IMG/VR virus record: IMGVR_UViG_3300043418_000050
Location: 1-28,987 of that record
DNA from: a virus
DNA length: 28,987 bases
Reading direction: 5' to 3' (one strand)
Below the pieces are notes generated by a model. That model was not told the origin of the DNA. It made no database searches and saw nothing but the letters and a program-made list of their open reading frames with translations. The first letter of the stretch is position 1; each line of letters starts with the position of its first letter. The position numbers and the translations under genes were made by a program. Positions 2,127 to 27,950 of this stretch are shown piece by piece.

Positions 2127-3524
2127 ATGGCTTTTCTTGACATTTTTAAACGCAAATCTACAGCGTCTAATGAAAGCAATAATTTGTTCGGGCAAACTGC
2201 CCTTGGTAACAATATTGTTTATTCGGGTAGCAATACTCGACCAACAGTAAACACTCAAGTTCTTTATGTAACTACTGCCTCAACAAACTCTGCTGGTCGT
2301 CCAGTAGATATGAACTTGCTGACCCGAAACAGTACGGTAATGGCTTGTGTTGGTGCAAAAGCTCGTGCTTTGGCTCAGTTGCCAATTAAGGTAATGTCAG
2401 AACAAGAAGACGGTTCATATCTTGATGCAATCAAAGATAAGTCTGTTGGCGTTAGGGATAAAAACAAAGCCAAGCAAGTTGCAAAGTTATTGAACAACCC
2501 AAACAACTTTCAATCAAAGTATGAATTTTGGTATCAATGGCTAATGTGGTTGGAATTGTCTGGTGAAGCCTTTACGCTTTGGTGGCGTGAAGACCAGAAG
2601 AACCCAACACAGACTCCAATGGAAATGTATGTTTTGGATTCAACGCTGATTGCTGTAACGATCAACCCTGCTCGTTATCCGTCATATCGTTTGTCTACTC
2701 CTTCTTACGGTTTCAGTAAAGATGAACCATTGATGGCGCATCAAGTGATGCACGTTAAAGAAGCGGCTTGGCAGGGTTCGGCTGGTTTTAACAAAGGAAT
2801 TTTGGCTGCTGAGTTAGTAACTCTGGACCAAGATATTGATGTGTACGCTAACTACATCATGCTAAACGGCGCAAAGCCATCGGGAATGTTTACCACCGAA
2901 CAAGTGATTCCAGACGCTAAGTACAAAGAGTTGGCATCGAGGCTAAAAGAGGCTTGGAGTTCAATGGTTGGAAGCCAAAGGACCGACCAATCAAAGCCGG
3001 GTCAAGGTATGTTGCTGGACCAAGGCATGAAATACACGCCTTTGGATATGCTTACCCTTCAAGACACTCAAGCGGCTGAGTTGAAGGTCCAAACCATGAA
3101 ACGCATCTGTGGTTTGTTTGGTGTTCCTCCTGCACTCATTGGTATTGCTGATCAGAAGTACAACAATACACAAACTTTGTTGGATGAGTTTTATAAATCA
3201 ACAATGTACCCAACAGTTGTAAACGTTCAAGATAAATTGAAACAGCAATTGTTCCAAGGCTATCCGTCTTTGTGTATTCATTTTGATACTGACAACTTTC
3301 TAAAAGGTGCGCCAATTGACCAGATGAATTACGTCAAAGCTGGTGTAGATTCTGGAATTTTGACCCCCAATGAAGCTCGTGAATATTTGGGTAAGCCTCA
3401 AATTGAAGGGGGCGATGAGTTAAAGCAAGATACCAAAGCAACTGACCCTATTTCTGGTTCTAGCCCTCAAGATACTGGTGGAGGCGGCGGTAATCAACGA
3501 AATAAGGCTAATATTGGCAAATAA
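2127..3524 (+). CDS. Portal protein (HK97 family)
   Basis: This 465-aa protein would form the dodecameric ring at the unique capsid vertex, the channel for DNA and the docking site for terminase and connector. The order TerL-portal-protease-MCP and sequence features of the HK97 portal family support the call. These include an N-terminal region with VMACVGAKARALAQLPIKV, a central segment on laying down an NPNNFQSKYEFWYQW helix, and the conserved CGLFGVPPALIG with YNNTQTLLDEFYKST. The C-terminus is a Gly/Gln/Asn-rich tail that is probably disordered. TAGGAG upstream (2116-2121) is a good ribosome binding site for ATG 2127. The stop overlaps the next ORF by one base (TAATG). Confidence 0.94.
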   Translation: MAFLDIFKRKSTASNESNNLFGQTALGNNIVYSGSNTRPTVNTQVLYVTTASTNSAGRPVDMNLLTRNSTVMACVGAKARALAQLPIKVMSEQEDGSYLDAIKDKSVGVRDKNKAKQVAKLLNNPNNFQSKYEFWYQWLMWLELSGEAFTLWWREDQKNPTQTPMEMYVLDSTLIAVTINPARYPSYRLSTPSYGFSKDEPLMAHQVMHVKEAAWQGSAGFNKGILAAELVTLDQDIDVYANYIMLNGAKPSGMFTTEQVIPDAKYKELASRLKEAWSSMVGSQRTDQSKPGQGMLLDQGMKYTPLDMLTLQDTQAAELKVQTMKRICGLFGVPPALIGIADQKYNNTQTLLDEFYKSTMYPTVVNVQDKLKQQLFQGYPSLCIHFDTDNFLKGAPIDQMNYVKAGVDSGILTPNEAREYLGKPQIEGGDELKQDTKATDPISGSSPQDTGGGGGNQRNKANIGK

Positions 3525-3733
3525 TGTCTTTGATTTTTAAGATTATGGTAGCATCGTTGGTAGCTGATAAACCAATTGTGCCGCCTACTCTTAAAAGAGG
3601 TAGACCGCCAAAAATAATACATGACATTGATTTATCTAAAGTCGATGAGGTAATCCATGACGCAAAATTTGATGATGGTGTGCGAGGCCAAGCTGGTTCT
3701 CGAAAAAACGGACAACGCAGAGCCAACGGGTAA
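3524..3733 (+). CDS. Small basic protein with AT-hook-like motif
   Basis: This 69-aa hypothetical protein has a 1-nt TAATG overlap with portal, so it would be read by reinitiation. Its most recognisable feature is LKRGRPPKI (about residues 23-31), which matches the RGRP core of AT-hook DNA-binding motifs. A second charged stretch follows. The last 77 nt overlap the prohead protease gene in another frame, and the C-terminal sequence there (SRKNGQRRANG) may be a by-product of that overlap. The first 130 nt are otherwise non-coding, which supports the gene. Function is unknown; a small head-module protein is the contextual guess. Confidence 0.5.
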   Translation: MSLIFKIMVASLVADKPIVPPTLKRGRPPKIIHDIDLSKVDEVIHDAKFDDGVRGQAGSRKNGQRRANG

Positions 3734-26500: not shown

Positions 26501-26677
26501 ATGAAAAAAGCAGACGCTATCAAACTGGCTGGCAGTGCCATCAAACTTGCTAAGGTGCTAGGCATCACAAAAGGTGCTGTGTCTCATTGGGGCGAAGACA
26601 TTCCCAAGGGACGAGAGTATGAATTACGATACATACGACCTGATTGGTTTACAGAGAAAGAGAAGGGGACAGCATGA
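26501..26677 (+). CDS. Cro-like helix-turn-helix repressor
   Basis: This 58-aa protein is a small Cro/YdaS-type DNA-binding protein. Residues 8-33 hold the HTH (LAGSAIKLAKVLGITKGAVSHWGEDI), followed by the family-typical IPKGREYELRYIRPDWF. It is first in the rightward early operon and divergent from the winged-helix regulator. No Shine-Dalgarno lies before ATG 26501, and the predicted promoter puts the transcript start at the ATG, so a leaderless message is likely. An in-frame ATG at 26474 lies inside the promoter and is rejected. It probably binds the inverted repeat just upstream. Confidence 0.85.
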   Translation: MKKADAIKLAGSAIKLAKVLGITKGAVSHWGEDIPKGREYELRYIRPDWFTEKEKGTA

Positions 26678-26985
26678 GTTCATTTGCAGAGTTAGAGTTG
26701 GCGGTCATTCGTTGGTCGGAAGATCGAAAAATCATCCCTAACAGCACACCGCTTGCTCAAGCTAAGAAGGCCAAAGAAGAAGTTCAAGAGTTGTATGACG
26801 CCTTAGTTTTAAATGATCGCAAAGCCGCCATAGATGGAGTTGGAGATACCGTTGTTTGTTTGCTTAACGTGTGCGCACTGATGGACGTTAACTTAACCGA
26901 TTGCCTTGAAGCTGCTTATGACGAAATCAAATTTAGAACTGGAACTATGGGCGCTGATGGAATTTTTTATAAGGATGTGATATAG
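26674..26985 (+). CDS. MazG-like nucleotide pyrophosphohydrolase
   Basis: This 103-aa protein of the all-alpha NTP pyrophosphohydrolase group shows KEEVQEL (E35, E36, E39) and IDGVGDTVVCLLN (D54, D58), which correspond to the metal-binding ExxE...ExxD pattern with D54 replacing the usual E. The ending EAAYDEIKFRTGTM..DGIFYKD is typical of phage MazG-like enzymes. Such enzymes remove (d)NTPs or alarmones; the substrate here is unknown. AAGGGGA precedes ATG 26674, which overlaps the Cro-like stop. The last bases contain the promoter of the structured RNA that follows. Confidence 0.82.
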   Translation: MSSFAELELAVIRWSEDRKIIPNSTPLAQAKKAKEEVQELYDALVLNDRKAAIDGVGDTVVCLLNVCALMDVNLTDCLEAAYDEIKFRTGTMGADGIFYKDVI

Positions 26986-26986
26986 T
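26978..26986 (+). promoter_or_regulatory. Extended -10 promoter for structured RNA
   Basis: TGATATAGT is an extended -10 element (TGn + TATAGT) lying over the stop of the MazG-like gene. At 17 bp spacing the -35 region (26958-26963, TGGAAT) matches 3 of 6 consensus bases, acceptable for an extended -10. The transcript would begin near 26992-26994, just before the first helix of the RNA element. Confidence 0.58.
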
Positions 26987-26991
26987 TCTTG

Positions 26992-27113
26992 AAAGACGCT
27001 TGGCGGCGTTTCTCAGTAGGGTTACACATGCTGTCTGCTGGTACTGAGCCAGTCCGCCAACGTATCCTCCTTAAAAAAGAGAGTACGAGACAGCAGGTGT
27101 AGCCCTTTTTTTT
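26992..27113 (+). ncRNA. Highly structured RNA element with terminator
   Basis: This is a roughly 120-nt non-coding stretch with four helices. A: TTGGCGG (27000-27006) with CCGCCAA (27054-27060), extendable by ACG/CGT. B: CTCAGTA (27012-27018) with TACTGAG (27042-27048). C: 27018-27036 with 27088-27106, 19 positions with one mismatch and one G-U pair, followed by eight Ts (27106-27113). D: 27062-27069 with 27079-27086, with one mismatch. C uses the loop of B, so A+B and full-length C cannot coexist except as a pseudoknot. A promoter precedes it, and the replication gene's GGA site and ATG follow after the T-run. It fits an independent sRNA, a pseudoknotted regulator or an attenuator leader. 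No family recognised. Confidence 0.78.
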
Positions 27114-27122
27114 GGATTAAAA

Positions 27123-27950
27123 ATGGCAAGAATAAGAACGATCAAGCCTGAATTTTTCAGGCATGAAGGTCTTTATGAGGCGGAAATAAAGACGAAATTA
27201 CCTTTGCGGATTGCTTACGCTGGTCTTTGGACTTCATGTGATCGAGAGGGAAGATTCAAATGGCGACCAAGACAACTCAAACTTGATTCGCTTCCTTATG
27301 ATGATGTTGATTTTTCACGCGTACTCGACGCGTTGCAATCGCGTGGATTTCTTGTCAAGTACGAGATTGATGGCGACCAATATGGAGCAATTCCTTCTTG
27401 GAAAAGTCATCAAGTTATCAACAACAAGGAATTGGCCTCAATTTTGCCAGAGCCACCAGAATCCTTAATTGAATCAAGTACTTACACGCGTGAATCACGC
27501 GTAGATGACGCGATGCTCACGCCACTTAATCTAGATCAAGGGGAAGGGAAAGGAAAGGAAGGGAAGGGGAAAGGAAAGGAAGCAGCTAACGCTGCGGCAA
27601 CTGTCGTTGCCTGTCCACCAGATGTTGATAAACAAGTTTGGGATGATTGGGTAGCACTTCGTAAAGGTAAAGGCGCAAAGGTTACAGAAACGGCTGTAAG
27701 TGGCGCAAGGCTTGAAGCAGAAAAAATTGGTTGGACACTTCAACAATTTCTTGTTGAATGGTGTACTCGTGGCAGTCAGGGCTTAAAAGCTGAATGGATT
27801 GTTGGTAAACAATCCCCTGCTGACAAACGCCAAAGCCACATGGCTCAGTTGACTCGCGGAATGTCAATCCCTAAGCCTCAACCTTTTTGGTCAAAACCTG
27901 TAACCGTTATTGAGGAGATTCCAAATGTGGAACCAAAACGACTTTTGTAA
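27123..27950 (+). CDS. Replication initiator (lambda O / DnaD-like)
   Basis: This 275-aa protein has a conserved N-terminal domain (about 1-105) opening RIRTIKPEFFRHEGLYEAE with GLWTSCDREGRFKWRPRQLKLD and ending SHQVINNKE, common in phage replication proteins and winged-helix-like. A Lys/Gly/Glu low-complexity linker follows (about 140-153), then a C-terminal part (VWDDWVALRKGKGAKVT...) that may contact the helicase loader. The loader-like P gene overlaps its end. The coding sequence holds two arrays of 11-bp repeats and a 45-nt pure-purine tract (separate entries), so the origin probably lies inside it, as in lambda O. GGA at 27114-27116 is the ribosome binding site. Confidence 0.82.
   Translation: MARIRTIKPEFFRHEGLYEAEIKTKLPLRIAYAGLWTSCDREGRFKWRPRQLKLDSLPYDDVDFSRVLDALQSRGFLVKYEIDGDQYGAIPSWKSHQVINNKELASILPEPPESLIESSTYTRESRVDDAMLTPLNLDQGEGKGKEGKGKGKEAANAAATVVACPPDVDKQVWDDWVALRKGKGAKVTETAVSGARLEAEKIGWTLQQFLVEWCTRGSQGLKAEWIVGKQSPADKRQSHMAQLTRGMSIPKPQPFWSKPVTVIEEIPNVEPKRLL
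27315..27347 (+). repeat. Iteron array 1 (three 11-bp units)
   Basis: Three units begin at 27315, 27326 and 27337 (TCACGCGTACT, CGACGCGTTGC, AATCGCGTGGA). The shared core is CGCG, placed at exactly 11-bp intervals (27318, 27329, 27340). Since 11 is not a multiple of 3, the repeats fall in different codon phases and encode different peptides, so the periodicity is a DNA signal. One helical turn per unit fits cooperative initiator binding. Confidence 0.75.
27484..27527 (+). repeat. Iteron array 2 (four 11-bp units)
   Basis: Units begin at 27484, 27495, 27506 and 27517 (ACACGCGTGAA, TCACGCGTAGA, TGACGCGATGC, TCACGCCACTT). The first three have CGCG at 27487, 27498 and 27509, and the fourth is degenerate (CGCC at 27520). 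The 11-bp phase equals that of array 1, 137 bp upstream. Together with the purine tract that starts 11 bp downstream, this is the best origin candidate in the window. Confidence 0.78.
27538..27582 (+). repeat. 45-nt pure-purine tract next to iterons
   Basis: An uninterrupted run of A/G on the + strand. A 15-nt unit, GGAAAGGAAAGGAAG, occurs twice (27547-27561 and 27568-27582). It encodes the Gly-Lys-Glu linker of the initiator. Homopurine-homopyrimidine tracts can melt or form triplexes, and such a tract beside iterons could aid unwinding; a purely protein-level linker repeat is the alternative. Confidence 0.6.

Follow-up and report, generated by a model that had tools for sequence, protein, structure and literature searches.

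In the virus record IMGVR_UViG_3300043418_000050, of which positions 1 to 28,987 were analysed (the whole 28,987-nucleotide stretch, hereafter the window), about 135 non-coding bases separate a MazG-like gene from a replication initiation gene, and these bases carry a structured RNA whose helices, promoter, terminator and conserved position are evident from sequence comparison. We suggest that this RNA is most likely the leader of an early replication operon and a cis-acting transcription attenuator, a reading to which we assign a probability of roughly 0.6, and that it probably decides when the phage begins to copy its DNA. From 5′ to 3′, members of the family contain hairpin H0 (loop TTGGNGG or a variant), the 5′ arms of helices B and C, hairpin E with the 3′ arm of B as its loop, linker J with the 3′ arm of helix A, hairpin D (often GNRA), the 3′ arm of C, a T run and the start codon. 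In the window the parts are as follows.

26978..26986, plus strand: extended -10 promoter element, TGaTATAGT, read from the sequence; it overlaps the MazG stop codon TAG at 26983-26985
26996..27009, plus strand: hairpin H0, stem ACGC/GCGT, loop TTGGCG; three of four pairs changed on both sides and 100% paired (21 sequences)
27000..27006, plus strand: 5′ arm of helix A (TTGGCGG), in the H0 loop, pairing with 27054-27060
27012..27018, plus strand: 5′ arm of helix B (CTCAGTA), pairing with 27042-27048
27019..27036, plus strand: 5′ arm of terminator helix C (GGGTTACACATGCTGTCT), pairing with 27088-27105
27038..27052, plus strand: hairpin E (CTGG/CCAG), its loop being the 3′ arm of helix B at 27042-27048
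27052..27061, plus strand: linker J (GTCCGCCAAC) with the 3′ arm of helix A at 27054-27060; it covaries with the H0 loop
27062..27086, plus strand: hairpin D, unusually long here; in most relatives a short hairpin of GNRA type
27088..27105, plus strand: 3′ arm of terminator helix C, from sequence, folding and covariation
27106..27113, plus strand: T8 run of the intrinsic terminator, read from the sequence; predicted 3′ end of the RNA

Covariation carries the argument for these helices. In an alignment of 21 divergent copies built only from their sequences, 97.6% of the cells of all helices were paired and both sides had changed in 33 of 42 pairs, giving a covariation score of 0.627 against 0.190 after shuffling and at most 0.117 with slid partners. 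Compensatory changes were found in all six helices (A, B, C, H0, E and D), so that they are not chance pairings; for A, B and C, such changes were the support that an initial annotation of the window had named. A and B alone were 97.0% paired, with a covariation of 0.493 versus 0.162 when shuffled. The six haplotypes of helix A among the relatives are all complementary (TTGGCGG/CCGCCAA, TTGGAGG/CCTCCAA, TTGGTCG/CGACCAA, TTGACCG/CGGTCAA, TTGACGG/CCGTCAA and TGGGGAG/CTCCCCA), and own partners pair at 6.0 of 6 counted positions where swapped partners reach 4.4. Helix B, with about 14 haplotypes, was paired in 94% of cells and had changed on both sides in five of seven pairs (own partners 5.8 of 6 positions, swapped 4.7). 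All 17 counted pairs of helix C were kept, 13 of them with both sides changed, and neither arm had an indel despite complete sequence replacement. Both sides had changed in all four pairs of hairpin E, which was 100% paired, and in all four of hairpin D. The copy count inflates the main type, but separate changes underlie the six types of A and the several C sequences that differ throughout.

The initial annotation had proposed four helices, of which A and B lie exactly where it placed them. Helix C is also present, with its start corrected to 27019 (27018 can join, through a possible extra pair A27018-T27107), its 3′ arm at 27088-27105 and one internal mismatch, A27028.G27096; the D hairpin (27062-27086) is the best candidate for the fourth helix, and H0 and E are additions to that list. 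The window element folds at -53.5 kcal/mol (z -5.2), and none of 200 shuffles folded as well. A mid-stem A.G or A.C mismatch of helix C, at the position of 27028/27096 in the window, is kept in main-type, type-2, L288 and L294 copies (L numbers denote loci), which otherwise differ in the sequence of C. In the covariance model alignment, the loop stretch of hairpin D has 17 nucleotides in the window versus 4 in the model; this enlarged hairpin contains CCTCCTTA at 27065-27073, which matches the 3′ tail of 16S rRNA letter for letter and is absent from the relatives listed.

Signals for making and ending a discrete transcript accompany the helices. The extended -10 element noted earlier over the MazG stop is indeed there, and relatives keep a promoter at a fixed distance: in 71 distinct upstream regions a sigma70-like -10 lies mostly 13–17 nucleotides 5′ of H0, and the best promoter score averages 8.9 versus 3.9 in shuffled sequence. 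This position just upstream of H0 implies that promoter and RNA travel together, and the near-fixed distance places the transcript start at the base of H0, with a predicted 5′ end in the window at about 26992-26994. A generic promoter scan did not list the window promoter because its -35 is weak (TGGAAT, 26958-26963). At the other end, the eight Ts stop 10 nucleotides before the initiator ATG, as had been annotated (T run 27106-27113, ATG at 27123), and every relative listed has a T run of at least five.

Transcription would begin at H0, and as the RNA grows the H0 loop would pair with linker J to form A while the segment after H0 would pair with the E loop to form B. A and B together would hold the 5′ arm of C in a loop and thereby serve as anti-terminator. 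Once the 3′ arm of C has emerged, C (17–18 base pairs plus the T run) would displace B and halt transcription about 10 nucleotides before the start codon, leaving a free RNA of about 120 nucleotides; stabilising or delaying A+B would allow the polymerase through to the replication gene. We infer this direction of the switch, and its action in cis. A leader peptide (ATG at 27028-27030, 24 codons, stop at 27100-27102) was considered and rejected, because relatives do not preserve its frame and the ATG is missing from type 2 and L233.

Folding of growing transcripts from eight representatives is consistent with such an order of events. Helix A appears at about 72–85 nucleotides in most or all of them, joined by B in the window, L018 and L250 and by other pairings or hairpin E elsewhere, and helix C takes over from about 95–105 nucleotides; in the window A+B fold best at 72–95 nucleotides and C from 105 onwards, and in L030m helix A is present at 85 nucleotides and not at 72. 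Helices B and C share nucleotide 27018, the 5′ arm of B joins that of C with no linker, and the 3′ arm of B lies at the far end of C. Since B could not bridge a complete C of 17–18 base pairs without a linker, full B and full C should, judging from helix dimensions, exclude each other in one molecule, and A could coexist with C. The initial annotation had left A+B and C as either alternatives or a large pseudoknot, in an element that could control replication or be a free small RNA; their separate covariation and the growing-transcript folding support alternatives, with geometry as the ground for exclusion. The locus has both a stable hairpin with a T run between promoter and gene (C and T8, 27019-27113, kept in relatives) and an evolutionarily supported pairing that should exclude the terminator (A/B covariation, the overlap at 27018, folding).

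Several points weigh against attenuation in cis. In pseudoknot-free models the A+B fold is some 15–23 kcal/mol less stable than C, so that antitermination would require a kinetic trap or a factor, although minimum-energy folding of this kind may understate the stability of the H0+A+B+E composite. Few unpaired nucleotides are universally conserved, and hence no ligand pocket is evident. Moreover, compactness alone could explain the position of the RNA, as compact phage genomes could put a ribosome-binding site right behind a small-RNA terminator without any regulation.

The small number of invariant unpaired positions also counts against a riboswitch, in which A, B, H0, E and D would form a small-ligand aptamer and C the expression platform. 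The layout would suit one, in that an intrinsic terminator directly before a gene competes with the pseudoknotted domain preceding it, but almost every junction nucleotide varies between types with a compensating change in its partner (A, B, E and the conserved GTCC included), the downstream genes have no common metabolic theme, and neither conserved ligand-binding nucleotides nor an Rfam match to a known class was found; we regard this explanation as improbable.

The foremost rival, possible and clearly the less likely, is that the terminated RNA is itself the principal agent and targets RNAs of the same kind in trans. One molecule would expose both a target (the H0 loop and the 5′ segment of B) and an antisense (the E loop and J), and accumulated RNA could capture a new leader, block A+B and force termination, or could dimerise with itself, a feedback that would limit replication or, as P4 does, confer immunity. 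In favour of this, the arms of A and of B could pair between molecules just as within one, their haplotype numbers are those expected of specificity elements, the genomes of L030 and L045 each carry two copies with different A/B types, the RNA has its own promoter and terminator, the constant length of C would suit a rigid spacer between two ends, and in some lineages J is an exact 7-nucleotide complement of the downstream Shine-Dalgarno. Nevertheless, pairing in cis explains the same covariation, and the complementarity of J to the Shine-Dalgarno is at most 4 nucleotides in the window's lineage and several others. Somewhat more doubtful still is feedback by RNA only, in which the terminated RNA would bind H0/B of same-type transcripts, or dimerise, and force termination; RNA concentration would then set replication, the A/B haplotypes would be immunity specificities, and two unrelated RNA classes (see below) would be exchangeable modules in one slot.

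With regard to J, the lineages of type 2, L233 and L283/L288 use the exact H0 loop sequence (TTGGAGG or TGGGGAG) a second time as the Shine-Dalgarno of the downstream gene, so that there J is complementary to both. The loci with this recurrence are L030 2849-2958 and L045 1964-2073 (both minus strand), L230, L232, L236, L239, L233 5665-5771, and L283 and L288 at about 1822-1928. The J match is 7 nucleotides only in these three lineages and at most 5 elsewhere, no better than with swapped partners, and J was rejected as a universal anti-Shine-Dalgarno; the upstream site in H0 is complementary to J in all types. The two copies of L030 lie at 2849-2958 (minus strand) and 3622-3727 (plus strand), differ in their A and B types and are carried as the same pair by L045, where as in L030 they point apart, in apparently two divergent early operons.

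The strongest argument for attenuation in cis is the need for readthrough. The genes on either side of the RNA in the window are the following.

26677..26985, plus strand: MazG-like / PRA-PH gene, upstream (PF01503, E 1.3e-5)
27123..27950, plus strand: replication initiation protein gene, downstream (PHROG phrog_16167, E 6.7e-40); a Pfam search of this protein gave no match

In every copy tabulated with a downstream gene, an ATG lies at most 15 nucleotides 3′ of the T run, which leaves no space for another promoter, so that the downstream genes should be transcribed through the terminator. These genes vary in family, including replication initiators, HNH and GIY-YIG nucleases, ParB-like proteins and small unknowns. 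Insertion of a free-standing nuclease gene immediately after the RNA, ahead of the replication gene, is common (GIY-YIG-like in L005, L006, L011, L028, L036 and L222; HNH in L030, L045, L060 and L089); association with HNH as a general feature was rejected, being seen in L030, L060 and L089 and not generally. Replication initiators are adjacent in most lineages, which would suit an origin or primer transcript for replication, but the gene that follows is often of another kind and the RNA has a strong terminator at its end, and we give this idea hardly any credence. A polypurine repeat (GGGAAAGGAAAGG...) at 27539-27586, within the replication gene of the window, encodes a GEGKGKEGKGKGKE linker and is a possible origin-like feature.

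Loci that have the same replication genes and lack the first RNA often carry a different structured element in the same slot. This second leader consists of a promoter, GAAACACGGCTAGG, a covarying hairpin, CCGAAAAGAG, a C-rich loop and CTGCCGnnGTTTC, followed by a G-rich strand complementary to the C-rich loop (a loop-to-downstream pseudoknot) and the start codon, with no T run. Its own loop-tail complementarity averages 5.8 nucleotides versus 4.8 when swapped and 4.0 when shuffled, and an Rfam scan of three of its loci gave no match. Among 240 anchor loci, for which some contigs were present in more than one set, 46 had the first RNA, 97 the second and none both. The second leader comprised 42 distinct sequences in 60 places; it occurs in L356, L335, L338, L344, L253, L417, L429 and others, and in the L333-L492 loci lies about 100 nucleotides before an ATG at 701. 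The alternation of two unrelated RNAs in one slot before the same type of gene points to a shared leader function. It also speaks against a plain small RNA that acts in trans on host or other phage mRNAs, behind which genome compaction would have placed the replication gene, to be expressed by leakage through the terminator. Compactness, and the presence of a separate promoter and terminator, would fit such an RNA, but the alternative helices are kept in every lineage and the slot is shared with a terminator-less structured leader abutting the same start codons, and we consider this very unlikely.

Copies of the RNA were found in some 90 phage records and in two genomes of bacteria. Fifty-eight IMG/VR contigs contain the exact 18-mer of the helix C 5′ arm, and divergent copies were recovered by further patterns and anchors, including the GenBank phage MW202462, in which a hypothetical protein annotated antisense across the RNA (MW202462.1 33654-33896; L002 817-1059, minus strand) is probably a spurious gene call. 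The bacterial copies are in L222, a metagenome-assembled genome of Betaproteobacteria, and L250, a second genome of the same order, and these alone gave strong matches among 399 genomes drawn from that order. A pattern scan of genome contigs gave mostly chance matches, L222 alone being real; the weak matches in L251 and L252 were unconvincing on reading, L493 also gave a weak match, and minus-strand covariance model matches were rejected as mirror matches of the long stem. A plasmid collection yielded nothing beyond a 25-nucleotide chance match. As the initial annotation had recognised no Rfam family, so the Rfam 15 scans gave no match at gathering or E-value thresholds in the window (one weak chance match, JPX) and none in relatives except a tRNA in L233, and a limited literature search found no description of the RNA. 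On sequence grounds we consider it a genuine family missing from Rfam 15. With copies in many environmental phage contigs and in no fewer than two bacterial genomes, it lies at a control point of phage DNA replication and offers an unusually clean case in which the anti-terminator and terminator halves are each independently protected by evolution; together with the second leader, it suggests RNA control of replication onset in many phages.

Among known systems, terminator-type riboswitches likewise pit a pseudoknotted domain against an intrinsic terminator upstream of a start codon, but here there is no conserved ligand pocket, metabolic gene theme or Rfam match. The HK022 put antiterminator RNA consists of two stem-loops that act on RNA polymerase and has no terminator of its own, an architecture different from the present one, which ends in an intrinsic terminator. 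In pT181 and pIP501, a terminator and an anti-terminator also compete before a replication initiator gene, but attenuation there depends on an antisense RNA transcribed from the other strand, and none is evident here. The P4 CI RNA is produced by processing and stops transcription of the replication genes by pairing with sites on both its sides (PMC4825925). In the present RNA the putative antisense segment, J, has a complementary site upstream and, in some lineages, a downstream site too: J is complementary to both H0 and the Shine-Dalgarno in type 2, L233 and L283/L288, which is not so in the window's lineage. It differs from P4 CI in that an intrinsic terminator and alternative pairing define the RNA, and the Rfam 15 scans and sequence comparison found no match or likeness to the P4 CI / P1 C4 family. 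IsrK, an RNA of the Gifsy-1 prophage, has its own promoter and terminator, some of its transcripts read into the downstream mRNA, and alternative structures decide expression (PMC4825925). The present RNA would share all three traits, although neither the window nor its relatives matched IsrK in Rfam at gathering score, and IsrK acts on orf45-anrP translation, whereas here the exclusive helix is the terminator and the downstream gene a replication initiator. By analogy, P4 CI RNA and IsrK would be the functionally nearest known systems, and the terminated RNA described here may possibly, like them, also act in trans.
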